Shown here: positions 261-25,665 of the stretch, piece by piece | How positions within the stretch are numbered: position 1 is the stretch's first letter | How the letters are laid out: the number at the start of each line of letters is the position of its first letter | NCBI GenBank assembly: GCA_021106765.1 | Contig: JAIOTO010000106.1 | Coordinates: forward strand, 1-33,956 | Length of the DNA stretch: 33,956 nucleotides | Direction: 5' to 3' | Source: Methanosarcinaceae archaeon | GTDB taxonomy: Archaea > Halobacteriota > Methanosarcinia > Methanosarcinales > Methanosarcinaceae | Position numbers and translations under genes: made by a program | The notes under the pieces: generated by a model | Seen by the model: only the letters and a program-made list of their open reading frames with translations | Told to the model about the DNA's origin: nothing | The model's database searches: none

Positions 261-1513
261 ATGCAAAAATACGCCCTCAGATGTGTTGAATGTGGGACCA
301 TCCAGGACACATATTCTACACACTGTGATTCGCATGATTCACTATTACGTACTGAATATCTTGAGAAAAAGCTCATACCACGGAACCTTCCGGGTATATG
401 GAAATATTCTGAATGGCTACCTGTGGATGGTGTGATACCTGAGGGTTCGGCCCATTCTGTGACATATCAGAGTGAAGGCCTTGGAAAGGAGTTAGGGCTT
501 GAGAACCTCTACATCAGTTTCAATGGTTATTGGCCGGAGCGAGAAGCCTGGATGAAGACATGCAGTTTCAAGGATCTGGAATCCTTTCCCACGATGCAAC
601 GCCTTCTCCAGCACAATGATCCACGTGTGATGGTCGTTGCTTCGGCAGGCAATACAGCCCGTGCTTTTGCCCATGTTGCATCCATCACCGGGCAGCCCCT
701 CTTGCTTATTGTACCCAAGATGAGCAAACATCGGTTGTGGATCCCGGGAGACGATACGTCATCAATATGTACTGTAGGGGTGGGGGGAGATTACTATTCA
801 GCTATCGAACTGGCCTCCAGGATATCATGCAGGAATGACTTCATCACAGAAGGAGGAGCGAGGAATGTGGCTCGTCGGGATGGAATGGGAACAGTCATGT
901 TGGATGCAACTCTCACCACCAGACGCCTGCCACAGCACTATTTCCAGGCAGTAGGAAGCGGTACTGGTGGGGTCGCCGTATGGGAGGCAGCAATGAGGCT
1001 TGTGGATGACGGGCGGTTCGGGAACCAACTGCCACGTTTGCACCTTGCACAGAACCTACCCTGTGCACCCCTATACGCAATGCAGTCTGGAGCCGATATC
1101 GACAGTTCCTGTCCAAAAGGAATGTGGGATGATGTGTTGTTCAACCGGCAGCCACCCTACAATGTTAGGGGCGGGGTCAAGGACGCATTGGATAACACCA
1201 ATGGCCTGCTCTACGGCATCACCAACAAGGAAGCAGAAGAAGCAAAAGAGTTGTTCGAGGTAACAGAAGGTATTGACATTCTTAATGCCCCGTCGGTCGC
1301 CATCGCTGCCCTGATAAAAGCAGTACATACACAGAGCATCGACCCGCATGACCATATACTGCTTAACATCACGGGTGGAGGGAAGGAACGACTGGAACAG
1401 GAGTACGCGACCAAAGAACTCGATTTTGACCTGACAGTATCCCCTACCAACCCAGAAGTTGAAAATGAGATTATAGACATGATTACGGAAAAACTAGGGG
1501 CGAGGGACGGACA

Positions 1514-1517
<4 letters not shown>
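261..1517 (+). CDS. Cysteate synthase (PLP-dependent, threonine synthase-like)
   Basis: This 418-aa protein of the threonine-synthase fold is recognised as cysteate synthase, which makes L-cysteate from O-phosphoserine and sulfite, the first committed step of coenzyme M synthesis in Methanosarcinales. The N-terminus has a small zinc-ribbon-like segment (CVEC at residues 8-11, Cys22). K104 in SFKDLE is the expected Schiff-base lysine, N131 in ASAGNTA the expected PLP-ring contact, and GSGTGG at 232-237 the phosphate loop. A true threonine synthase is the main alternative. The same operon contains comD and comE, which act two steps later (after transamination of cysteate), and this strongly favours cysteate synthase. 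The ATG at 261 has no ribosome site but sits at leaderless distance from a TATA box. The stop overlaps the next gene by ATGA. Confidence 0.88.
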
Positions 1518-2274
<757 letters not shown>

Positions 2275-2278
<4 letters not shown>

Positions 2279-2973
2279 AACTTGCTGTCACCGCAGGGAC
2301 GCCGGGCTCAGGGAAGACATCGATCCTCCTCCACACCATAAAAGCATTGAAGAGACGGGGCAATAACCCGGCCGTTGTCAAGGTGGACTGCCTATGGACA
2401 GACGATGATACACGCTTTGGCAGACTAGGGGTCCCAGTCAAAGTGGGACTCTCAAAGGACATGTGCCCAGACCATTTCACCATATACAATACGGACGACA
2501 TGATCGAGTGGGCAAAGGGTGAGGGTGCCGATGTGCTGATCAACGAGACTGCTGGCCTATGCCTTAGATGTGCACCCTATCCGGACAACTGCCTTGCCAT
2601 ATGTGTGATCGACGTGACGACAGGACCGAACACTCCCCTGAAGGTGGGACCCCTGCTCACCACAGCTGATATCGTTGTGACTACAAAAGGTGATATCGTA
2701 TCACAGGCTGAGCGCGAGGTGTTCCGGGAACGGGTTCTGGAGGTCAACCCCGACTGCATGATCATCGAGGCAAACGGCCTCACTGGTAAAGGTGCCATTG
2801 AACTTGCAGAACTTATAGAGATGAGTGAAGAAACGAGCGAGGACATGATGTTGCGTCACACCCCACCCCTGGCCATCTGCACTCTCTGCACCGGCGAGAT
2901 GCACGTCTCACGCAAATACCACATGGGAGTCCTCCGCCACCTGGACGGTTTTACCGAGTATAGGGGTGAATGA
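2275..2973 (+). CDS. HypB/UreG/CobW-like P-loop GTPase, cysteine-rich
   Basis: This 232-aa SIMIBI-type NTPase has the P-loop GTPGSGKT (8-15), a switch-like segment ETAGLC (91-96) and TKGD (137-140) in the place of the guanine-specificity NKxD motif. Its family (HypB, UreG, CobW) usually delivers metal ions or loads cofactors. Cysteines are unusually frequent: C39, C64, C96, C99, C106, C110, C161, C202 and C205. A C-terminal CTLC is followed by several histidines (H210, H216, H222), so a bound metal or Fe-S cluster is plausible. No hydrogenase or urease gene is present, which argues against HypB or UreG themselves. GGAGG precedes the ATG, which overlaps the ABC ATPase stop. The client protein is unknown; the Fe-S protein 3 nt downstream is the obvious partner. 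Confidence 0.75.
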
Positions 2974-2976
2974 ACG

Positions 2977-3615
2977 GTGGCCGATATAGTAGAGTTGTTA
3001 CCCGGGTACAACTGTGGTAAATGTGGATATCCCCAGTGCAGGGACTTTGCATCACACATCAAGGATGCCACCGATCTCATGAACTGCCCCTACCTCACAC
3101 ATCAGCGGTTCCATGAGCAACTGAAAATACTCAGGCAAATGTTGCAGGACGAAAAGGAGCCCACTGAACTGCCTGTCATTCAGGGTGTGATCGATGGACT
3201 CGCCGCAGAATTCGCGTTGGGACCTCTGGTAGGAGAGAAGTCCTGCCGAGAAGATGTACATTCCTTTGACAGCACCCTTGATATCAAGAAAGGAGATGTG
3301 ATCAGATATCGTCCCCTGGGATGCCCCATAACTCATTTCGCAGAGGTGATCGAAATGTCCCACGGAATCGCCACCGTCCATATTATAGGACCAAGACAGA
3401 GAATGGAGGACAGGGACTTTTCGTACAAGGATGCAGGCATCTGCATGATACTGGCCTTTGAAGGTAGGATCATGCGAGGCAATGTCCCAAAGGTCGGGCA
3501 GACAGTACGGTTCCTTCCCGAACACTGCATGATGCAGAAGATACATTCCGGTGTCGTGGTGGGCGTTGAAGGAAAGAACATTCGTATTGAGATAATAGAC
3601 CTGAAGGTGTGGTGA
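2977..3615 (+). CDS. Small Fe-S protein with a CxxCx4Cx15C N-terminal domain
   Basis: This 212-aa protein begins with C13, C16, C21 and C37, the PF04060-type four-cysteine domain found at the N-terminus of the CODH/ACS corrinoid-protein large subunit and of corrinoid-protein activators. It ligates one [4Fe-4S] cluster. The remaining ~170 residues are beta-rich, include RYRPLGCPITHFAEVIEM, and match no enzyme that I recognise. GTG is the likely start, with GGGGTGA placed 7 nt upstream. It lies 3 nt after the GTPase and 4 nt before comD, inside the operon. An electron donor to, or scaffold for, a metal-dependent step of CoM synthesis is a reasonable guess. No corrinoid-protein gene is nearby, so a role in corrinoid activation is less supported. 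Confidence 0.7.
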   Translation: MADIVELLPGYNCGKCGYPQCRDFASHIKDATDLMNCPYLTHQRFHEQLKILRQMLQDEKEPTELPVIQGVIDGLAAEFALGPLVGEKSCREDVHSFDSTLDIKKGDVIRYRPLGCPITHFAEVIEMSHGIATVHIIGPRQRMEDRDFSYKDAGICMILAFEGRIMRGNVPKVGQTVRFLPEHCMMQKIHSGVVVGVEGKNIRIEIIDLKVW

Positions 3616-3619
3616 CATA

Positions 3620-4117
3620 ATGGATCCTGCAACATCAGTATTTAATGGGCTCAAGAAAAGCGGTATCGATCTTATTACGACCGTACCCTGTGCCAATCTA
3701 AAAGAGGTTATCCTCATGCTCGAGGATGATCCTGATATCAAACACGTGCCGGTTACCCGTGAGGAAGAAGGCGTCGGCATCTGTGCAGGTGCATGGATGG
3801 GAGGGGGGAAAACAGCCATGCTCATGCAGAACTCAGGCCTTGGGAACTCGATCAATGCCCTGGCATCCCTCAACCAGTTGTACGGCATCCCGCTGCTGAT
3901 GATCATGAACCACCTCGGTGTTGAGGGTGAACCTATATGTGCCCAGGTGCCCATGGGCGAACTGACAACCCGTCTACTGGATGCCCTTGTGATACCATAC
4001 CTGATACCCGACGACCATGATGCTGAGCAAACCATTCACAGGGCATGGAACCTGGCCACCGCAGAAAATAAACCCGTGGCCGTGCTGCTTGATATCCCGT
4101 TCTGGGAGGGAGCATGA
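3620..4117 (+). CDS. comD: Sulfopyruvate decarboxylase, alpha subunit
   Basis: This 165-aa protein matches ComD, the pyrimidine-binding half of the thiamine-diphosphate enzyme that decarboxylates sulfopyruvate to sulfoacetaldehyde in coenzyme M synthesis. The TREEEGVGICAGA segment (about 47-59) carries the conserved glutamate that activates the thiamine ring, and QNSGLGNSINAL follows. The size is that of the separate alpha subunit; in some methanogens the two subunits are fused. The ATG follows a GGTGAC site, and the stop overlaps comE by ATGA, as expected for a stoichiometric heteromer. Confidence 0.92.
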   Translation: MDPATSVFNGLKKSGIDLITTVPCANLKEVILMLEDDPDIKHVPVTREEEGVGICAGAWMGGGKTAMLMQNSGLGNSINALASLNQLYGIPLLMIMNHLGVEGEPICAQVPMGELTTRLLDALVIPYLIPDDHDAEQTIHRAWNLATAENKPVAVLLDIPFWEGA

Positions 4118-4677
4118 AACGTATTGCCGTGATACGGGAAGCAGCATCAACTGCACGGGATATAGGTGCCCTTGTTGTGGGAAACATTGGATTCCCTTCC
4201 CGGGAACTTCATGCTGTGGATGATCGACCAGACAATTTCTACATGCTGGGTTCCATGGGCCTCGCTTCGTCCATTGGACTGGGAATTGCCCTGGCACAGC
4301 CTGAACGACGGGTGATCGCCCTGGACGGGGATGGCTCCGTGCTCATGAACATGGGGAGCCTTGCGACCATCGCCAACCAGCAACCTGAGAACTACCTGCT
4401 TGTTATCATTGACAATGGCAGCTATGGATCAACCGGCGACCAGCCCACAGCCACCTCTCAGAAAACTGACCTGGCCAGGGTAGCAAAGGGAGCCGGGGTC
4501 CAGAACGTTCATATGATCGATACCCTGACAGATGTCCATCGCCTGATGGAACAGGTGAGCAGTGGTGTCATCGTAATCAAGGTAGAGCCTGGTAATGCAG
4601 ATGTCCCTGTGATCCACCTCTGCCCGGCAGACATAATGGAACGATTCATGGCACAATGCGCTCGACCATTTCCGTAA
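4114..4677 (+). CDS. comE: Sulfopyruvate decarboxylase, beta subunit
   Basis: This 187-aa protein is the pyrophosphate-binding half of sulfopyruvate decarboxylase. It has the thiamine-diphosphate/Mg motif: GDG at 72-74 followed by the asparagine of IIDNGSYGS near 101. GSMGLASSIGLGIALAQP precedes it, as in acetolactate-synthase relatives. With ComD it forms the active sites at the subunit interface and releases sulfoacetaldehyde, the last well-established CoM precursor. It is the last gene of the operon. Its final 32 bp lie under the convergent marker-16 gene, so both 3' ends are fixed by mutually overlapping coding sequence. Confidence 0.92.
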   Translation: MKRIAVIREAASTARDIGALVVGNIGFPSRELHAVDDRPDNFYMLGSMGLASSIGLGIALAQPERRVIALDGDGSVLMNMGSLATIANQQPENYLLVIIDNGSYGSTGDQPTATSQKTDLARVAKGAGVQNVHMIDTLTDVHRLMEQVSSGVIVIKVEPGNADVPVIHLCPADIMERFMAQCARPFP

Positions 4678-5929
4678 GTCTGAAAGTACCATCCAGTATG
4701 GACCGTTTCAGTATCTGAGAAAGCTCGATCGCCCTCTTGCGATCCGATTGCCGCAGGATGACAGGCACATCGATATCCGTTCCATTGTACTCGAAATGGA
4801 GGGCACCGAGTTCTGCAGCGAACACATCCACGGGGCAAAGTGTTGTGCATAACCCACAGTTGAAACACTTAACCCTGTCTAGCACCACTGCCCCATTGTC
4901 AACATGGATCGCATCTGTGGGGCAACTCTCCTGCGGCAGGCAATGGTCACACCCGATACATCGGGATGGCTCAACAACCACTTCCAGATCCACACCGCTC
5001 CAGCCATCCCCATATGTGGCCATGCCTATGCGTTCTCGCTGGTCCACATCCATGACCGGAAGGGGTACCTTGCTATCGAGCTGCTTGATCGCATCCAGCA
5101 CCCCTTTCTCAATCACCGGGATGGGGACAGCCCATGAGACCACACATTCCGGACCCGCTGATGTGGTGAACCCACCCATGTATTCCGGTATCATTGAATG
5201 CATATCTGCAACTGCTATCAGATTAGGTTTCTCGACACTGCTGCGGGTCCCATCACCGATGATGAAACCCTGTGCCCCATTGAACAGTATGCGCGTCCCT
5301 ATACCAATGGTCCTCAACTGCGGATCGTTCTTAACAGGATTGAGCTGACCACAACCCGAAAAGGTCGCTCCACTCATATCCGGACCAAACTCTACCGCGT
5401 GGAATATCGTGGATACCGAGTTTGACGAACAGTTCACGAACGCCGAGTAGTTCTTGAATGTATTCCGCGTCCCGAAGAGTTTTGCATAGGTGATGTCATC
5501 CAGAGTGGTCGTGGTGCTGAACGTTGTGCCAGCGTCAGTAACAACCCTGACAGATACAGGTTTGCGCTCGACCAGGTCCCGGAACAGGTGACCTGCACCA
5601 TATTCCGGATCGTCGATACCATGTGTCGTACCAAAGACCATCATGTCAAGGATCCCAAGCCGCTCGTTGGGACAGGGGCCCACGTGGGCAGGTACCTCAT
5701 TAAGAAATACCTGATCTGCTCTTATGAAACTGAAAGGTGCATCCACCGGGAACGAGAGAACGGCATAGGTGCCGCTCATGACAGCACGGGTAGCGGTGGT
5801 CACCACATCCACATCCTCGAGGATAATGTCATCACCATTCTCTACAAGCTCGCCCACTTCCTGCGCAGTCAATACGATAGCTTTTCCTTTGATAATTCGT
5901 TCATTGATATCTTCGATCGAGCGTACCAT
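4646..5929 (-). CDS. Methanogenesis marker 16 metalloprotein (DUF39 + two-cluster ferredoxin)
   Basis: This protein (427 aa from the preferred start) has an N-terminal DUF39/COG1900 domain (about 1-310) and a C-terminal ferredoxin domain. The DUF39 family includes the archaeal enzyme that puts sulfide on aspartate semialdehyde to give homocysteine, an aldehyde-to-thiol conversion. Coenzyme M synthesis needs the analogous step on sulfoacetaldehyde, and this gene sits tail to tail with comE, so it is a strong candidate (inference). Conserved-looking cysteines occur in GPCPNERLG and SGCGQLNPVKND. The first cluster motif is unusual (CxxCxxCx5C); the second is a standard CxxCxxCx3C. The start at 5929 has GAGGGGATC 4-5 nt upstream; an ATG at 5953 would place that site inside the coding sequence. 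Confidence 0.85.
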   Translation of the reverse strand: MVRSIEDINERIIKGKAIVLTAQEVGELVENGDDIILEDVDVVTTATRAVMSGTYAVLSFPVDAPFSFIRADQVFLNEVPAHVGPCPNERLGILDMMVFGTTHGIDDPEYGAGHLFRDLVERKPVSVRVVTDAGTTFSTTTTLDDITYAKLFGTRNTFKNYSAFVNCSSNSVSTIFHAVEFGPDMSGATFSGCGQLNPVKNDPQLRTIGIGTRILFNGAQGFIIGDGTRSSVEKPNLIAVADMHSMIPEYMGGFTTSAGPECVVSWAVPIPVIEKGVLDAIKQLDSKVPLPVMDVDQRERIGMATYGDGWSGVDLEVVVEPSRCIGCDHCLPQESCPTDAIHVDNGAVVLDRVKCFNCGLCTTLCPVDVFAAELGALHFEYNGTDIDVPVILRQSDRKRAIELSQILKRSILDGTFRLTEMVERIVP

Positions 5930-5964
5930 ATATGATCCCCTCAACGGATTCAATTATAGAGATA

Positions 5965-7962
5965 TTATTCTTCGTCACCGAAAAGATGCCTGACAGCCCT
6001 CACTGCATCCGGTGTCCCGATCAACACAGCCACATCACCCGCCAGTAATCGCACACTTCCAGCTGGATTGGGCAATGTCTCTGAATCTCGACGTATGGCC
6101 AGTACTGTTACTTCATGTGTATTCCTTAGGTCAAGTTCAGCCAGTGTCTTGTTAACTACGGGCGAATATAGCAACACTCTGAAAGAGCTGATGTCTTCAT
6201 TGAGCAGATCGAACTGCATTCTTTCAACATCCATAGGCTCATGAGATAGGGTCCTGAACATCTCATAACCATCAGAACGGACCTCTGCGGTGAACATCTC
6301 GATCTGTTCTTCGGGCACAAAATAACGTCTCATAAGCCGTACGAAGATCTCTATAGTTGTCTCGAACTCCTCGGGGATCACGTCATCCGCACCCACATCA
6401 TATAACGGTTCCATTTCCTGCAGATACCGCGTCCGTGTGATGATGTGAACATGAGAATTGAGCTGTCGGGTAGCCCACGTGATCCTTCGTGATGCTACCG
6501 GATCAGATATCCCAATGACCATGACACGGGCATTGTCTATATCAGCATGTTCGAGCACCGATTCCTGTGTAGCATCCCCATAATAGATATTTTCTCCCTT
6601 TGATCGTTCTTCTCTGACAGTCTCTGGGTTCGTATCGATGATAATATAGGGGATACCTGCAGTAGTGGCGGCCTTTGCTACAGTCTTTCCGTTGAAACCA
6701 AAACCAACGATGATCAGATGATCTTCAAGTTGATGTTTCTGGTCGGTTACCTTTTCGATCGGGCGTGGATGAAGCCCACATTTGATTTGCTGAGGAAGGG
6801 GAATACGCATTACCATATCTGCCACTTTTGGTGCTGATGAGATAACAAATGGTGTTAAAGCCATGGTGAGGATCGATACGGTAAGGAAAAGCTGATATAC
6901 GTTATCGTCAAGCAGGCCATAGTCCACGCCGAATCTGGATAGGATAAATGAGAACTCTCCTACCTGGGCAAGGGAGAGTCCTACAAGAATACTGGTGCGC
7001 AGAGGATATCCGAGTATATATGGTACAAGACCAGCTATTATTGATTTCATTAACAGGACACCAAGAGCAATGGATACAAAAAGCACCGGTTGCTGGAGAA
7101 AGTACCCGACGTCCAGTAACATGCCTATGGACACAAAGAAGAAACTCATGAAAATATCCCTGAAAGGAACTATGTTACCAAGTGCCTGATGACTGTATTC
7201 GGATTCTGAGACGATCAAGCCTGCGAGGAATGCTCCTAATGCAAGGGACAGGCCCATAGAGTAGGTAATCCAGGCAACTGACAGACAGATCACAATAATG
7301 CTCAACAGGAACATCTCCTGATTACGGGTCTTTGTTACCTGGTACAGAAGATATGGAACGATCCATTTGGCACTTATGATCACAAGTAAGATACCACCTA
7401 TCCCTTTAGCAATTATGGCTATCACAGAAATATCGGCCCCGCCATTCACACCGGCCAGTATGGGTGTAACCAATATCATGGGCACTACAATAACATCTTG
7501 GAACAAAAGTATTGATAGTATTGTCCTCCCATGCGGTGAATGGATCGATGCACGTTGCTGGAGAAGTTTTAGCACAATAGCAGTACTGCTCAGGGATATT
7601 AGGAAACCAATGAAAATAGACTCGTTAATTCCATATCCTGCCCATGTCGCCAGGAAATAAGTTACCAATGCGGTCAACGATACCTGAAGGAACCCCCCCA
7701 GAAGGACAGCCTTTCTCATATTCCAGAGGTCTTTTAAGGACATCTCGGCCCCGATGGCAAAGAGCAGTAAGACGATACCGATCTCGGCGAGTAGTTCGAC
7801 CTCATGCAATGCGCTGATCAATCCGAATCCGTGTGGACCAACAAGCATTCCTGTCAACAGGAATCCCATAATGAGTGGTAAACGAGCCTTGTGACAGATA
7901 TAGATGATAAAGATCGATAGACCTAATATGATCGTAATATCATTCAATATCGTAGTGTCCAT
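5965..7962 (-). CDS. CPA2-family cation:proton antiporter with RCK (TrkA-N/TrkA-C) domains
   Basis: This 665-aa protein has about 12 hydrophobic segments in residues 1-380, with LLLFAIGAEM near 65 and LFQDVIVVP near 154-162, both typical of KefB/KefC-type exchangers. It continues into a cytosolic TrkA-N (RCK) domain with a nucleotide-binding GFGFNG (420-425) and an acidic strand end in IIDTNP. A TrkA-C domain occupies about 590-658. It probably exchanges K+ or Na+ for H+ across the membrane under control of NAD(H) or another ligand of the RCK domain. The ion is not decided by sequence. The ATG follows AGGAGC. It starts 2 kb from the marker-16 gene and is separated from it by 35 bp in the same direction, so some readthrough is possible. 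Confidence 0.85.
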   Translation of the reverse strand: MDTTILNDITIILGLSIFIIYICHKARLPLIMGFLLTGMLVGPHGFGLISALHEVELLAEIGIVLLLFAIGAEMSLKDLWNMRKAVLLGGFLQVSLTALVTYFLATWAGYGINESIFIGFLISLSSTAIVLKLLQQRASIHSPHGRTILSILLFQDVIVVPMILVTPILAGVNGGADISVIAIIAKGIGGILLVIISAKWIVPYLLYQVTKTRNQEMFLLSIIVICLSVAWITYSMGLSLALGAFLAGLIVSESEYSHQALGNIVPFRDIFMSFFFVSIGMLLDVGYFLQQPVLFVSIALGVLLMKSIIAGLVPYILGYPLRTSILVGLSLAQVGEFSFILSRFGVDYGLLDDNVYQLFLTVSILTMALTPFVISSAPKVADMVMRIPLPQQIKCGLHPRPIEKVTDQKHQLEDHLIIVGFGFNGKTVAKAATTAGIPYIIIDTNPETVREERSKGENIYYGDATQESVLEHADIDNARVMVIGISDPVASRRITWATRQLNSHVHIITRTRYLQEMEPLYDVGADDVIPEEFETTIEIFVRLMRRYFVPEEQIEMFTAEVRSDGYEMFRTLSHEPMDVERMQFDLLNEDISSFRVLLYSPVVNKTLAELDLRNTHEVTVLAIRRDSETLPNPAGSVRLLAGDVAVLIGTPDAVRAVRHLFGDEE

Positions 7963-8118
7963 GGACTGAAAGCTCCTGTTATGATACTGATCGGAAGTGA
8001 ACTGGCATACAGATCATATACTAATTACATTTCATAATAGATTATAACCAATACTACTTAAAAACTAACAACGATCTTCCATATAAATGGCATTCTCTAA
8101 AAGTAACAGGAATGTGAC

Positions 8119-8175
8119 AAAAAAAGGTGATCATACACTTCCAGTACAACGCTGAGATCCCTTTGTACTGGAGGT
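8119..8175 (-). terminator. Inverted repeat plus T-run after the 380-aa gene
   Basis: A perfect 10-bp inverted repeat, TCCAGTACAA (8140-8149) with TTGTACTGGA (8163-8172), extends to 13 bp with one G-U pair. On the minus strand it is followed about 11 nt later by seven T residues (8119-8125). It begins 5 nt past the stop of the unknown gene at 8180. This fits a minus-strand terminator, although archaea mainly rely on the T-run rather than the hairpin. Confidence 0.55.
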
Positions 8176-8179
8176 ACTA

Positions 8180-9322
8180 TCACTTTCCTTCTACACCAAG
8201 GATACCCGCAAGTTCGAGCCCCTCACTGCCGATCTCGGAGAGCTGGTCGAATACCTCGGTCTTTGTGACATATTTCTCGGTCCTTGTCCCATCCTCTTCC
8301 TCTATCTTGATCGTGATCTCGCCCTTCGCATACCCTCGCTCACCACATTCCCGAATGATATCGGCATACTGTTCAGCGATCAGTTTCAGGCAGTCAAATA
8401 TCTCTGTACTCTTGATAGCGTTCTTGCCATCGAACTGTATCGTAGTTAGTTTCTGGGATGCTATATGGTTCTGCATATAAGATATCAGTGAATCCACCAG
8501 GGCGACGATCTCGTCGATCTTGACCGATTTCAAAAGGGTAGAATCAGCTGTTATCTCCTTGTCATCATAGTATACTCTGTATACATCATCATCATCCCGG
8601 ATTATCCTGAACCGGTAAACACCTCTTCTACTCTCGAACACTGCCTCAACATGTGAATGACCATCGTAATCGAATGAGACCAGTATGAGATCCGATACAT
8701 CCTCCATCTTCACCTTATCCTCTTTGTGGATCAGACCTGAACGGGTCCATGTTGGAAGGAAGAGATTTCCAGAGGCCTCTCGGACTGTCAGCACGTCCTT
8801 ATCGAAGGTCAGTTTCGACTGATATTCCATGGTAGCCAGGGATGCGGTCAACATTCCCTGTAGGATACCACTTTCCAGCCGGGCAGAATATTTTTTATCG
8901 GTCCCATACACTCCCCCTTCGAACAACTGATCGAGTATGTTCAAGACCTGACTCTCCACATTATCTAAATCCTTCTCTATGCCTTCCCTGCTTTTTTCGA
9001 TCTCGGAGTTGATGTGCTTAATTCCACTGGAAGCATTTGTGTTGCATGTATCGATCACAGCATTTCTGTAATCAAGAACTTCCTGTATATCAGTATCTTT
9101 TGTAATGCGTTCGACATAGTTCAAAACGTCCTTATGAGAACGCTCCAGTTCAGTGAGCCCACTTTTGAGAGAACTGGTAAGCTTCTGCCATTCATCATTC
9201 TTCTCGATTGTAGAGTTCTCTATTGGAAGAATATCTCTGGATGCACGGACGAAGGTTTGCAGATCGTCAACGATGTCCCTCTGGAGAGGTAATTTAGTTG
9301 AATCTTGGAATATATACTTCAT
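8180..9322 (-). CDS. Hypothetical 380-aa protein with a coiled-coil N-terminal half
   Basis: I do not recognise a family. Residues about 45-150 are rich in Glu, Lys, Leu and Ile in heptad-like spacing and look like long helices or a coiled coil. Residues about 170-265 look beta-rich (HSHVEAVFESRRGVYRFRII) with a run of aspartates (DDDD). Residues 265-345 look helical again, ending in a short strand-rich tail. There is no signal peptide, membrane segment or cysteine cluster, so it should be soluble and cytoplasmic. GGGGAT precedes the ATG at the right distance, and the frame is open with normal codon use, which supports a real gene. It lies 98 bp after tyrS in the same direction; co-transcription is possible but gives no functional clue. 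Confidence 0.75.
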   Translation of the reverse strand: MKYIFQDSTKLPLQRDIVDDLQTFVRASRDILPIENSTIEKNDEWQKLTSSLKSGLTELERSHKDVLNYVERITKDTDIQEVLDYRNAVIDTCNTNASSGIKHINSEIEKSREGIEKDLDNVESQVLNILDQLFEGGVYGTDKKYSARLESGILQGMLTASLATMEYQSKLTFDKDVLTVREASGNLFLPTWTRSGLIHKEDKVKMEDVSDLILVSFDYDGHSHVEAVFESRRGVYRFRIIRDDDDVYRVYYDDKEITADSTLLKSVKIDEIVALVDSLISYMQNHIASQKLTTIQFDGKNAIKSTEIFDCLKLIAEQYADIIRECGERGYAKGEITIKIEEEDGTRTEKYVTKTEVFDQLSEIGSEGLELAGILGVEGK

Positions 9323-18586: not shown

Positions 18587-19567
18587 TTAACTTCCAATAA
18601 TATAAATGATCAATGAGGATACTATCACTGATAGTAAGGATGCAATTGCTATGATACGGCACACCTTAATTATATCTGCCGCCATAGGAGCACTGTAATT
18701 ATCACCGATCACATAAGTGCCCGGTTTTTCCAGCCTCACCTCTAAAGCACCTGAGACCGCTGCCATCGGGAATCCGGAGTTCGGTGACGAAGGCCTTGCA
18801 CAATCCCCTTTCGCACACCTGAAGGCACCTGTGGGGCTCAGACCGCTCGTATCTTCGAACAGTTTCAGCAATGAAGAGGCAGCCATAATAAATATTACCG
18901 ATACACGTGCAGGGATCCAGTTCAGCACATCATCCAGTTTTGCTGAGAAGAAACCAATGTCGATATGCTTCTCGTCCATATACCCTACCATTGAATCCAG
19001 GGTACTCACAGCTTTGAACGCATAGGCGGCCATCAGGCCAAATGGTCCCGCGATCGAATAAAAGAAGAGCGGCGTGAGGATCGAATCCACGTAGTTCTCA
19101 GAGACTGTCTCGATCACCGATGAAGATACCTGTTCCTCGTTCAGACTGGACGTATCCCTGCTTACATACATGGAAAGCCGTTTGCGGGCTTCGACAATAT
19201 CTCCCCGATCAAGTTGTTCGTAAACTTCACTTCCTGCATGGAGAAGTCGACGTATCGCAAATGTTGATTTTAATAGATAGGCTTCGAGCAGAAGGCCCAC
19301 AAACCCGGGCACGATAGAGCTTGCCGATATCATCAGCACGATCCCCGCAACGAGACCGGTAAATGTGATGCATGTCATCCCGAGGAATACGCCATATAGT
19401 TTCCTATGGGAGTCCGGAGCGATCCGTTTCAGGAAGGTTATCAGGTCACCTATCCATACCACAGGATGTAATTTCGTGGGTGGCTCCCCTATTAACAGGT
19501 CAAAGGCCACCGCAAGGAACAACACATATAACAGGTGTGCTGTACCCGGAAGGGGAAAATCGATCAT
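18587..19567 (-). CDS. cbiB: Adenosylcobinamide-phosphate synthase, membrane protein
   Basis: This protein (326 aa from the preferred start) joins adenosylcobyric acid with (R)-1-aminopropan-2-ol phosphate, the product of CobD. The family-typical AFDLLIGEPPTKLHPVVWIG follows the first helix, and SENYVDSILTPLFF and DVLNWIPARVS follow later; several membrane helices are visible. The start at 19567 overlaps the cobD stop by ATGA, the coupling seen throughout this operon. A longer frame from 19594 would overlap cobD by 31 nt. Substrate and product link it directly to both cobD genes upstream. Confidence 0.93.
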   Translation of the reverse strand: MIDFPLPGTAHLLYVLFLAVAFDLLIGEPPTKLHPVVWIGDLITFLKRIAPDSHRKLYGVFLGMTCITFTGLVAGIVLMISASSIVPGFVGLLLEAYLLKSTFAIRRLLHAGSEVYEQLDRGDIVEARKRLSMYVSRDTSSLNEEQVSSSVIETVSENYVDSILTPLFFYSIAGPFGLMAAYAFKAVSTLDSMVGYMDEKHIDIGFFSAKLDDVLNWIPARVSVIFIMAASSLLKLFEDTSGLSPTGAFRCAKGDCARPSSPNSGFPMAAVSGALEVRLEKPGTYVIGDNYSAPMAADIIKVCRIIAIASLLSVIVSSLIIYIIGS

Positions 19568-21054
19568 AGAAGGGGTTTCACCACCCGGTTCCATGCCTTT
19601 GTTAATCTATCATCCATGCTGCCATTGCCGATGAGTTCATCAAGGATAGCCTGAACATTCTCCGGACGATGTACCAGGGTACAATCCTCACAGCTCCATA
19701 CCTTTCCACCGCTTGATCGCTCAACCCACTTGCCGCCGGTGTGCTCGTCCTTGCATGGATAGAATGGACAGAAACAGAACGTACAGTCCTGATCAGGGAA
19801 ATGACAGGGATAATAGGGACATCCGGTGTTGCCGCCCAGGGGTTTGCCCTTTCGTTTCTCTATCATATGGTTGAGTTTTTTCATGGCTGTATCTTTTGCA
19901 TCCCCTACAACAGCAACCCCTATGGCTTTTGTGAGACGATCGGTCTCAGCTCTTGAACGGACGGCCACTCGTATGAAATCATTTCCAAGACCCTGGAACG
20001 AACTGCAATCCCTGATAAGAATACCCTGGGACGCGAGCCGTTTGCTAAGATCTACTGAATCAATACTGGATTCGCTCATATCAACAAGAACATAATTAAC
20101 ACTGCTTGATAATGGTCGGAACTTGCGTACTTTCGAGAGTTTTTCTATCAAATACTCCCGTTCCTCTTTGATCAGTGCCCTGGACTTCACCAGATATGAA
20201 CTGTTGCATCCCTCTTCCATATTCAAAAGAGCGGTACCGATCATTTCCGGTATTGATCCCAGGTTCCAGGGGAGTCTTGCGGTATTCAACGACGTGGCCA
20301 TGTCTTTTGGTGCAACACCGAACCCAAGGCGCACGCCGGGTATGGCAAAATTCTTGGTCAGGGAACGCATCACGAACACATGATCATTCAATGTTGCCAG
20401 ATCCACAATGCTCTGGTCAGGATCTGCCAGCTCGATGAATGCCTCGTCGACGAATAACAGGGTCTGGTGTGCTGTACATCGGCTTGCAAGCGTCACCATA
20501 TTGTCACGCTCGATCAATCTGCCAGTAGGATTATTTGGATTACACACGAATAGGATCTTTGCCCGATCCAGCAACTCATCTGACACCTCGAAGAGCTCAT
20601 CATGATCGAGGTACTGTATGTCTGCACCGACCATCCGGCACTGCTGTTCATATTCTGCGAAGGTGGGTTGTGGGATCAGCACCACATCATCTTCTTCCAG
20701 CATACATTCGGCTACCAGTCGTATGATCTCACAGGAACCATTCCCGGGAATAATATTGATATGATCCACGCCCTGTCCAAGAAAACGGGCAGCTGCGTGT
20801 TTGAACTCAAGATAACGATTGTCCGGGTATTGACCGAATTGTCCAGTAGCCTTCGTAAAGATAGCATCCAGGGATAATCCTGTGGAAGGATGGTCGAACG
20901 GACTACCCATAGGGTTCAGGCTTGCGCTGAGGTCAAGTATGTCAGATTCGGCAATATCACAGCTTTGCGCAGTCTCACGTATCAGACCTCCGTGAACAGG
21001 TTTTGGTAGGGCTATGATACGCGCTTTTAAAGGTAATTTGTTCTCTTCTGGCAC
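19564..21054 (-). CDS. cobD: L-threonine-O-3-phosphate decarboxylase with Cys-rich C-terminal domain, copy 1
   Basis: This 496-aa protein has an N-terminal PLP aminotransferase-fold decarboxylase (about 15-390) and a cysteine-rich C-terminal domain (about 400-496). The PLP lysine is K234 in SLTKNFAIPG. CNPNNPTG (171-178) and DEAF (203-206) are the usual cofactor contacts. The tail has CPYYPC, QDCTFCFCPFYPC and WSCEDC. Established knowledge: the M. mazei homologue MM2060 is bifunctional, with both L-threonine kinase and L-threonine phosphate decarboxylase activity, and the C-terminal extension is absent from Salmonella CobD. The product feeds CbiB. The start appears to be GTG, with no clear ribosome site. 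It is the first gene of the coupled cob operon. Confidence 0.93.
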   Translation of the reverse strand: MPEENKLPLKARIIALPKPVHGGLIRETAQSCDIAESDILDLSASLNPMGSPFDHPSTGLSLDAIFTKATGQFGQYPDNRYLEFKHAAARFLGQGVDHINIIPGNGSCEIIRLVAECMLEEDDVVLIPQPTFAEYEQQCRMVGADIQYLDHDELFEVSDELLDRAKILFVCNPNNPTGRLIERDNMVTLASRCTAHQTLLFVDEAFIELADPDQSIVDLATLNDHVFVMRSLTKNFAIPGVRLGFGVAPKDMATSLNTARLPWNLGSIPEMIGTALLNMEEGCNSSYLVKSRALIKEEREYLIEKLSKVRKFRPLSSSVNYVLVDMSESSIDSVDLSKRLASQGILIRDCSSFQGLGNDFIRVAVRSRAETDRLTKAIGVAVVGDAKDTAMKKLNHMIEKRKGKPLGGNTGCPYYPCHFPDQDCTFCFCPFYPCKDEHTGGKWVERSSGGKVWSCEDCTLVHRPENVQAILDELIGNGSMDDRLTKAWNRVVKPLL

Positions 21055-21250: not shown

Positions 21251-22837
21251 TTATAATCTGGGAACGATCACCTGTTTCCATGCCTTGGCCAGATTGTCTT
21301 TGGTGGTCCCCTCTTCCATCAATATGTCGAGGACCTGATGCACAACATCCGGATGATGGATTATGGTACATCCCTCGCAGCTCCATACCTTTCCACCGGT
21401 GGTGCTATCGATCCACCGACCACCTGTGACCTCATCCTCGCATGGATAGAACGGACAGAAACAGAATGTGCAGTCCTGTCCTCGAAAATGGCAGGGATAA
21501 TACTCACAGGTATTCCTGCTGGAGGGTGCGCCGGAGGCTGCATTCTCAATAGTCTGCTTCAACTTTTCCTCTGCATATTCTTTCCCGGATTCGGTGAGGA
21601 CCTTGCCGATCATTGTTACCAAACGATCGGTTTCCTGACGTGGCCGGACTGCCACCCTTATATATTCCTTATCATGAGTATTCTGTAGACCTGTTGCAGA
21701 GCAATAACCATGTGTTCGGGTCGCTATATCAGTATGCTCTTCATTATGGTTATAGAAGGAACTGCAGTCCCTCACAAGGACAGCATGGGATGCCAGCCGC
21801 TGAGTGAGTTCCTCTGAATCCATCAGCAAGCCACTTACATCCACCAGTACAAAATTAACACTGCTGGACATTGGTTCAAAGCCATAAATGTCGGAAAGGC
21901 GTTCTATAAGATACTCCCTTTCCTTCCGTATAAATTCCCTGGACTCGATCAGATACGGACTATTGCATCCTCCTTCCATATCCAGCAGGGCACAGCCCAC
22001 TACATCGGGCAGCGAGCCCAAGTTCCAGGATAAGCGTGCCGTATTGAGTGTATTTGCCATTGCTACAGATGTTATTCCGAATCCCATCCGTATGCCTGGT
22101 AGGGCGAAATCCTTTGTCAGAGATCGAAGTACAAATACATGATCATTGGACGCTGCCACGTCTGCAATGCTCTGTTCCGGGTCTGCCAGCTCGATAAATG
22201 CCTCATCGACAAAAAGCAATGTATCGCTGGCGGTGCATCGCTCAGCGAGTTCTATCAATTTACTGCGAGGGATTAGCTCACCAGTGGGATTGTTCGGATT
22301 ACACACGAACAAGATCTTTGCCTCTGCCAGCAGGTCCGTCGGTATATTAAACAGGTATTCCAGCGGATGATATCTGATAACGGCTCCTGCAATACGACTC
22401 TGCTGCTCATATTCGGCGAACGTGGGCTGAGGTATGAGGACCATGTCCCCTTCCTCAAGAACACATTCTGCCACCAATCGTATGATCTCGCAGGATCCAT
22501 TACCTACTACAATATGCTGTGCATCCACACCCTTTTTCAAAAAATTGGCTGCTGATCGTCGAAAATCCATGTAACGATTATCCGGATAGTGTCCAATGGT
22601 CTCCAGAGATCGCTGCATCAGGTTATCCATGTCAAGGCCGTAATTTTGATCAACATAATGACCATTCTCCCAATTACCAAAGGGGTTACCCATAGGGTTC
22701 AGATTAGCACTGAGATCAAGTATTTCTGATTCAGGGATGTCGTACATCTGTGATGTCTTACGAATAAGGCCACCATGTGTGGATGGTTCAAGGGCCAATA
22801 TATTCTTTTTGAGGGGGAGCATGATCGTATGGTCCAT
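21251..22837 (-). CDS. cobD: L-threonine-O-3-phosphate decarboxylase with Cys-rich C-terminal domain, copy 2
   Basis: This 528-aa paralogue of the neighbouring CobD carries the same two domains. The decarboxylase keeps the PLP lysine in SLTKDFALPG, CNPNNPTG and DEAF, and the C-terminal domain keeps all visible cysteines (CEYYPC, QDCTFCFCPFYPC, WSCEGC). It is longer because of two insertions: about 12 residues near 57-68 (GHYVDQNYGLDM) and about 25 residues near 369-393 (HTDIATRTHGY and following). Both copies look intact, so neither is a pseudogene. It ends 196 bp before copy 1 and is divergent from pylT. Possible roles include a dosage copy, a split of kinase and decarboxylase work, or a different amino alcohol for another cobamide. 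Confidence 0.9.
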   Translation of the reverse strand: MDHTIMLPLKKNILALEPSTHGGLIRKTSQMYDIPESEILDLSANLNPMGNPFGNWENGHYVDQNYGLDMDNLMQRSLETIGHYPDNRYMDFRRSAANFLKKGVDAQHIVVGNGSCEIIRLVAECVLEEGDMVLIPQPTFAEYEQQSRIAGAVIRYHPLEYLFNIPTDLLAEAKILFVCNPNNPTGELIPRSKLIELAERCTASDTLLFVDEAFIELADPEQSIADVAASNDHVFVLRSLTKDFALPGIRMGFGITSVAMANTLNTARLSWNLGSLPDVVGCALLDMEGGCNSPYLIESREFIRKEREYLIERLSDIYGFEPMSSSVNFVLVDVSGLLMDSEELTQRLASHAVLVRDCSSFYNHNEEHTDIATRTHGYCSATGLQNTHDKEYIRVAVRPRQETDRLVTMIGKVLTESGKEYAEEKLKQTIENAASGAPSSRNTCEYYPCHFRGQDCTFCFCPFYPCEDEVTGGRWIDSTTGGKVWSCEGCTIIHHPDVVHQVLDILMEEGTTKDNLAKAWKQVIVPRL

Positions 22838-23255: not shown

Positions 23256-24602
<1,347 letters not shown>

Positions 24603-24612
24603 GGTGAGAATC

Positions 24613-25665
24613 TTGTTTAAAAATATGGATCAGGACGAACTTGATAATTTTGCAGAAAAGATCGTGAACGGATCTGAACTATCTGATGATAACATACTTG
24701 ACCTGCTCTCCATCAAAGATAAAGTGGAACTTGACAAGCTTTTCTACGTCGCAAGGGCTGTTCGGGACCATTACTTCGGCAATAAGGTGTTCCTATACAG
24801 TTTCGTCTATTTCTCAACATATTGCAAGAACAACTGCTCTTTCTGCTACTACAATTGTGGCCATGACATCCCACGTTATCGCCTGAGTCTTGAGGATATC
24901 GAGCGACTCTGCGATGGACTGAAAGGAGAGGGCTTCCACATGATCGATCTGACAATGGGGGAAGATCCCTATTTCTATGATGATCCCAATAAACTGGTAG
25001 AGATTGTCAGGACGGTCAAGGATCGGGTGGGATTACCAATAATGGTGTCTCCGGGCGTCATGGATAAAGATACTTTTAGGAAACTGCATAAGAACGGTGC
25101 TGATTTTCTGGCACTGTACCAGGAGACCTACGATCGGGAACTATATGGTAAACTCAGGAGAGGACAATCCTTCGAGGAACGTATCAATGCCAGGAAGTCC
25201 GCAAAGGATATCGGGTACTGTATCGAGGACGGGATACTCACACGTGTTGAGCCAGATATGAGATCCACACTAACGTCACTCCGGGGGCTGGAAACATCTG
25301 ATCCGGATATGGTGCGTGTGATGACCTTTGTGCCTCAGGACGGGACGCCCTACGAGGGCAGCGAACCAGGATCCAGCGATCAGGAACTGATGATCATTTC
25401 TATCCTTAGAATAATGTTCCCGGACCGCCTGATACCTGCATCCCTGGATCTTGAGGGTATCGACGGCATGGTCCATCGTCTCAATGCAGGTGCCAATGTG
25501 GTCACCTCGATCATCTCATCGGACTCGGTCCTTGAGGGTGTTGTCAACTACGACCGGGACATGGATGAAAGGGACAGGGATATTAAAAGTGTTGTAAAAC
25601 GGCTTGAAAGCATGGGAATGGTTCCAGCGGATCAATCTGATTTCAACAAGGTACTGGGTATGTAG
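24613..25665 (+). CDS. pylB: Methylornithine synthase, radical SAM (PylB), amber-terminated
   Basis: This 350-aa radical SAM enzyme rearranges L-lysine to (3R)-3-methyl-D-ornithine, the first step of pyrrolysine synthesis. The [4Fe-4S]/SAM motif is CKNNCSFC (C71, C75, C78). The TTG at 24613 has AGGTGA 5 nt upstream and gives the same length and alignment as Methanosarcina PylB; a GTG at 24604 and an ATG at 24625 fit worse. The stop codon is TAG, one base before the pylC start. It is the only TAG stop among the genes with a visible stop in this window. Readthrough by tRNA-Pyl would add pyrrolysine and 42 residues before a TGA at 25792. Confidence 0.95.
   Translation: MFKNMDQDELDNFAEKIVNGSELSDDNILDLLSIKDKVELDKLFYVARAVRDHYFGNKVFLYSFVYFSTYCKNNCSFCYYNCGHDIPRYRLSLEDIERLCDGLKGEGFHMIDLTMGEDPYFYDDPNKLVEIVRTVKDRVGLPIMVSPGVMDKDTFRKLHKNGADFLALYQETYDRELYGKLRRGQSFEERINARKSAKDIGYCIEDGILTRVEPDMRSTLTSLRGLETSDPDMVRVMTFVPQDGTPYEGSEPGSSDQELMIISILRIMFPDRLIPASLDLEGIDGMVHRLNAGANVVTSIISSDSVLEGVVNYDRDMDERDRDIKSVVKRLESMGMVPADQSDFNKVLGM

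Follow-up and report, generated by a model that had tools for sequence, protein, structure and literature searches.

Methanogenesis marker 16 beside comE in a Methanosarcinaceae archaeon: a very probable coenzyme M synthase, and lineages that make sulfoacetaldehyde without it

The window, as the whole 33,956-nucleotide stretch of Methanosarcinaceae DNA analysed here is called, carries a plus-strand operon of coenzyme M (CoM) genes in the order cs, ABC-type ATPase, HypB/CobW-like GTPase, Fe-S protein, comD and comE, which is met from the opposite strand by a gene for methanogenesis marker 16 (MMP16).

261-1517, plus strand: cysteate synthase, cs (TIGR03844, 571.8 bits)
1514-2278, plus strand: ABC-type ATPase, found with CoM genes (PF00005; conserved neighbour)
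2275-2973, plus strand: HypB/CobW-like GTPase, found with CoM genes (PF02492; conserved neighbour)
2977-3615, plus strand: Fe-S protein, found with CoM genes (PF04060)
3620-4117, plus strand: comD, sulfopyruvate decarboxylase alpha (TIGR03845, 214 bits)
4114-4677, plus strand: comE, sulfopyruvate decarboxylase beta (TIGR03846, 239.8 bits)
4646-5929, minus strand: MMP16, very probably ComF, the coenzyme M synthase, 427 aa (TIGR03287, HcyBio, ribosome-binding site, AF2 model)
5965-7962, minus strand: KefC-like CPA2 antiporter (KefC model 323 bits, the best match, and TIGR00932 213 bits, both under the curated cut-off)

The cs, comD and comE genes adjoining MMP16 all score above their profile cut-offs, as expected of a genome that makes sulfoacetaldehyde. 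The ATPase, GTPase and Fe-S protein are among the neighbours of CoM genes and MMP16 described in the M. acetivorans study (Chadwick et al., 2025; PMC12068725), and the Fe-S protein is probably the one called 'COG2000' there; it was present in 33 of 65 genomes, every one of which has a ComE match (one weak). The MMP16 frame can be read from a TTG (4646-5953, 435 aa) or from an ATG (4646-5929, 427 aa). Because GAGGGG precedes the ATG at 5929 at Shine-Dalgarno distance, the ATG is the likelier start and the TTG at 5953 less likely, and the start given in the preliminary description stands. Upstream on the same strand, 35 nt before this ATG, lies the KefC-like antiporter, so that MMP16 is probably co-transcribed with it and not with the CoM operon; such an antiporter adjoins MMP16 also at loci L055, L057, L123-125, L133-135 and L137. 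Elsewhere in the window are the pyrrolysine genes pylS and pylB (23274-25665), and readthrough of TAG is possible in this genome. Two adjacent same-strand genes (19564-21054 and 21251-22837) encode CobD-like threonine-phosphate decarboxylases. Both are long, at 496 and 528 aa, and carry additional C-terminal parts; the second scores under the TIGR01140 cut-off.

The 3' ends of MMP16 and comE share 32 bp (4646-4677), just as the preliminary description had it. Both genes were present in 118 fetched loci, some of them redundant, of which 106 are convergent and 12 codirectional; in 52 of the 106, from Methanosarcinaceae and Methanothrix, the two genes overlap by 32-50 bp. These numbers argue that the convergence is not a product of chance. 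The convergent layout prevails in Methanosarcinaceae and Methanothrix, while in other lineages MMP16 is codirectional and lies beside or upstream of cs-comDE.

The window protein matches the TIGR03287 (methan_mark_16) profile over its full length (1-391 of 391) with 512.7 bits against a cut-off of 363.95, and the Pfam family HcyBio (formerly DUF39; COG1900) with 334.5 bits. Its ferredoxin is inserted within the HcyBio domain, which spans residues 25-426, with Fer4 at about 325-377 (435-aa numbering). The AF2 model is confident (mean pLDDT 94, pTM 0.92), and the model predicted for L-ASST, the aspartate-semialdehyde sulfurtransferase, is too poor for residue geometry (pLDDT 74). A search of the PDB for a relative of the HcyBio domain returned ferredoxins only, and an approach to the mechanism by homology to a solved fold was dropped for that reason. 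In the phylogeny against aspartate-semialdehyde sulfurtransferases that had been suggested as a check, MMP16 forms one clade, set apart from L-ASST by a long branch (100/100). Within it, the window protein groups with the Methanococcoides, Methanolobus, Methanohalophilus and Methanothrix types, as named from matching records, and the Methanosarcina type is the sister group; identity to such Methanosarcina-type homologues is about half (52% to that at L004). In several Methanosarcina (L073-L077), a second and distant MMP16 is encoded away from cs-comDE, in an ATPase-GTPase-FeS-MMP16 gene cluster; cluster I of this copy reads CxHHPxCx5C, with His as the second ligand.

Coenzyme M is essential to all biological methane formation, and the last step of its synthesis was the last in the archaeal pathway to lack an assigned enzyme; an assignment has since been published, unlike a mechanism. 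The synthase assignment was thus already known, having been reported in 2019 for MJ1681 and in 2025 for M. acetivorans ComF. MJ1681 forms CoM in E. coli (White, 2019, Biochemistry 58:1958, as cited in PMC12068725 and PMC12713407), and MMP16 is described as the primary CoM synthase, ComF, of M. acetivorans, where deletion of MA3299 causes a CoM-dependent growth defect, CoM auxotrophy in the absence of sulfide and, at 0.4 mM sulfide, a CoM-starvation transcriptome, with complementation also reported (Chadwick et al., 2025; PMC12068725). Judged from its orthologues and neighbours, the window gene is very probably ComF (methanogenesis marker 16, COG1900d), converting sulfoacetaldehyde from the neighbouring cs and ComDE to coenzyme M; the role proposed in the preliminary description is upheld by the published function of these orthologues and by co-occurrence with ComE.

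This co-occurrence was assessed in 392 genomes of the phylum that are at least 90% complete, in a cross-table compiled by hand from profile search outputs (MMP16 above cut-off, ComE at E < 1e-45). MMP16 was found in 178 genomes and ComE in 203: both in 173, MMP16 alone in 5, ComE alone in 30 and neither in 184. The association has a Fisher p of 2e-71, which is naive in that shared ancestry is not taken into account. MMP16 adjoins cs/comDE in most lineages, in either orientation. Presence of the family in species without ComE had been named in advance as counting against the role, and a few such cases exist, namely G191 and two Methanomethylicia with MMP16 in which ComE was not found, but 173 of the 178 genomes with MMP16 also have ComE. 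G191, assembled in 3 contigs and 99% complete, is a genuine exception; among the other genomes with MMP16 alone, the gene lies at or near a contig edge in G255 and G298, and G014 and G379 are fragmented assemblies.

The residues on which the mechanism may depend were compared between 24 L-ASST sequences and a non-redundant set of 144 MMP16 sequences drawn from Halobacteriota, Thermoplasmatota and Methanomethylicia. Cys86, Ser191 and Cys193 of the window protein correspond to Cys95, Cys200 and Cys202 of M. acetivorans, the Cys86/Cys95 numbering having been checked on L004.

5774-5776, minus strand: Ser52, aligned with the essential Cys54 of L-ASST
5663-5680, minus strand: GPCPNE loop with Cys86, absent from L-ASST in the alignment with 24 sequences
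5351-5359, minus strand: Ser191-Gly-Cys193, from the alignment
4922-4960, minus strand: cluster I ligands C324-x2-C327-x2-C330-x5-C336, from the alignment of 144 homologues
4835-4867, minus strand: cluster II ligands C355-x2-C358-x2-C361-x3-C365, invariant in 144 homologues

The cluster-I motif of the window protein, CIGCDHCLPQESCP, has the irregular spacing CxxCxxCx5C that had been described, together with the suggestion that it marks a special cluster. The spacing is retained in nearly all 144 homologues, with C327 replaced by His in six and by Leu in one, so that it is a trait of the whole MMP16 family, and its reading as a special-cluster signature was abandoned.

Outside the ferredoxin, all 144 MMP16 sequences have a serine (Ser52) where all 24 L-ASST sequences have their essential cysteine. 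Cys86 is kept in 140 of the 144 and is Ala in four; position 193 is Cys in 141 and Ser in three; and position 191 is Ser in 102 and Cys in 38. Joint loss of Cys86 and Cys193 was not seen in any of the 144. Cys86 had been considered as an invariant catalytic cysteine, being invariant within 60 sequences, until the four Ala residues appeared with the addition of Thermoplasmatota and Methanomethylicia. Some of these Ala86 sequences may be paralogues, that at L241 being a second copy and that at L246 coming from an unusually large genome. Every non-ferredoxin cysteine is replaced somewhere among the 144 sequences and none is invariant, in agreement with mutants of M. acetivorans MMP16 in which Cys200 and Cys202 proved dispensable (PMC12068725). 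Since the L-ASST cysteine is an invariant Ser in MMP16 and the other cysteines vary, MMP16, unlike L-ASST, seems to require no single HcyBio cysteine strictly. As read from the alignment, the invariance of Ser52, the absence of Cys54 and the lack of an invariant cysteine outside the ferredoxin are new here. The preliminary description's claim of the same chemistry as L-ASST therefore holds overall, but not for the same catalytic cysteine. Among arginines, R393 is invariant in MMP16 and Ser or Pro in L-ASST, and R229 is nearly invariant and Gln in L-ASST, making both candidates for holding the sulfonate.

In the mechanism proposed here, the aldehyde would be held by MMP16-specific arginines (candidate residues R229, R393 and R397), and sulfide, probably passed on by the COG2122 protein, would add to it, forming first a thiohemiacetal and from this a thioaldehyde, which two electrons from the built-in 2x[4Fe-4S] ferredoxin would reduce to the thiol. 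That no HcyBio cysteine is strictly conserved speaks against a persulfide, and a route without one is tentatively suggested for MMP16. The second cluster-I ligand is variable, and the cluster-I iron is a possible sulfide site. Equally tentative is the fuller proposal of persulfide-free aldehyde sulfuration with sulfide from COG2122, possibly at the cluster-I iron, together with a third CoM synthase in ANME-2d-like archaea. If the persulfide-free reading is true, the mechanism of MMP16 differs from that of L-ASST. With the residue map and the COG2122 link, the mechanism lends itself to testing with few mutants.

Somewhat doubtful is an L-ASST-like mechanism with a cysteine persulfide, for which Cys86 of the GPCPNE loop and Cys193 would have to be interchangeable. 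The two residues are each kept in all but a few sequences and never lost together, a persulfide has been reported on a conserved cysteine of MA1821 (PMC5764234), and PMC12068725, where Cys200 and Cys202 were mutated, reports no mutant of Cys95. However, natural replacements exist at both Cys86 and Cys193, and Ser stands throughout MMP16 at the Cys54 position. In addition, the loop that carries Cys95 is described as distal and remote from the core cysteines (PMC12068725), so that mutual replacement with a core cysteine is hardly possible.

The proposed sulfide donor for the persulfide-free route is known as a partner of L-ASST in sulfur assimilation. COG2122 is genetically required together with L-ASST in Desulfovibrio, and the COG2122 protein MA1715 is needed for growth of M. 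acetivorans at low sulfide (PMC5764234; PMC12068725); in the accessible sections of PMC12068725, L-ASST is the only partner given for MA1715. In the genome of the window, contig C64 carries a separate COG1900a cluster of L-ASST, a small ferredoxin-type protein and COG2122, which adjoins L-ASST; this L-ASST (L001 1060-2562, G000:C64) has Ser at the position of the non-essential Cys131 of other L-ASST. The COG2122 family was recognised through its match to 2o34, which we take to be a UPF0280/COG2122 protein. Three Thermoplasmatota methanogen genomes (G415, G499 and G502; loci L259, L262 and L263) have an MMP16-cs-comDE-COG2122 cluster with COG2122 last, preceded in two of them by the ATPase and GTPase, and COG2122 is the direct neighbour of MMP16 in seven of the nine Methanomethylicia MMP16 loci (L247, L249-L254, L256 and L260). 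This shared operon and this adjacency suggest that COG2122 acts for both MMP16 and L-ASST, a link that is new here. The protein was found in 58 of 68 genomes; among the 68 it was missing from each of the four f3 genomes, from G320, from two haloarchaea-like genomes, from two Methanomethylicia without MMP16 and from one fragmented f2 genome. At L260, an ABC transporter of the sulfonate type, with an SsuA-like binding protein and a permease (5641-8273), lies beside COG2122-MMP16, and ComE was not detected in that Methanomethylicia genome.

As for the product, it is improbable that MMP16 mainly makes another thiol, such as CoB mercaptoheptanoate or homocysteine, with CoM as a side activity. A double deletion of MMP16 and L-ASST was unobtainable even with CoM and methionine, and a shared role of the two in CoB synthesis has been suggested (PMC12068725); the distant second copy in some Methanosarcina and the few genomes with MMP16 and no ComE point the same way. 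Nevertheless, CoM alone rescues growth of the MMP16 mutant (PMC12068725), and MMP16 clusters and co-occurs with cs/comDE.

Assigning the step to MMP16 leaves the lineages with ComE and no MMP16. Of the 30 genomes with ComE alone, nine are from family f8, which appears Archaeoglobi-like by gene content and in which mcrA was not found in the three genomes tested. A further 18 lie outside f8, in f2 (5), f3 (4), f15 g56/g52 (7) and f13 (G018 and G033), and they argue that the last step of CoM synthesis has other solutions. An mcrA match was present in 14 genomes of the f2, f3, f15 and f13 groups, including G352, whose ComE match is weak. The ComE-only f2, f15 and f13 genomes have one L-ASST-like HcyBio protein each. 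The f3 McrA matches PDB chains 9qqt and 9qr1 almost throughout (1224 and 1190 bits); these are presumably ANME-2d (Methanoperedens) enzymes. We infer that f3 is ANME-2d-like and that f2 is another ANME-2 group. The four ANME-2d-like genomes (95-99% complete; G267, G273, G294 and G334, loci L035, L036, L037 and L040) have mcrA, cs and comDE, and neither an HcyBio/COG1900 protein nor COG2122 was found in them, leaving a gap at the last step of both CoM and homocysteine synthesis. Lineages that make sulfoacetaldehyde without MMP16, above all the ANME-2d-like methane oxidisers, thus probably complete CoM synthesis in at least one further way, and their listing is, with the residue map and the COG2122 link, what is added here to published work.

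Two replacement candidates were set aside. In f2 (L033, L034, L038, L039 and L234; ComDE and L-ASST, no MMP16), comDE is followed by a gene pair encoding a 396-aa GGR-like flavoprotein and a 209-aa radical-SAM protein; the pair is conserved within f2 and has no chemical link to the step. The ATPase-GTPase-FeS trio, which adjoins this pair at L038 and L234, is no strict replacement, being present in all seven f15 genomes tested with ComE and no MMP16, in some f2 and in no f3. It is very unlikely that the last step is mostly an uncatalysed reaction of sulfide with sulfoacetaldehyde that MMP16 assists at low sulfide only: high sulfide lets the MMP16 mutant grow, L-ASST or uncatalysed chemistry partly substituting (PMC12068725), and the ANME-2d-like genomes have cs and comDE with no COG1900 protein, but the auxotrophy and starvation transcriptome of the mutant (PMC12068725) speak against it.

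Among characterised systems, MA3299 and MJ1681 belong to the same family as the window protein, TIGR03287, with HcyBio and an inserted ferredoxin, and in Methanosarcina MMP16 is likewise convergent beside comE. The window protein differs from M. acetivorans ComF in having Ser191 as the equivalent of Cys200 and in falling into the Methanococcoides/Methanolobus/Methanothrix group of the tree, and the window differs from the Methanosarcina system in its split comD and comE. With L-ASST (MA1821-MA1822, COG1900a and NIL/ferredoxin), MMP16 shares the HcyBio domain, aldehyde-to-thiol chemistry, a need for ferredoxin electrons and a genetic link to COG2122. However, a serine of MMP16 stands in the place of Cys54 of L-ASST, and MMP16 has a built-in ferredoxin and no CBS domain that could be found, whereas L-ASST has CBS domains and carries NIL/ferredoxin on a separate subunit.
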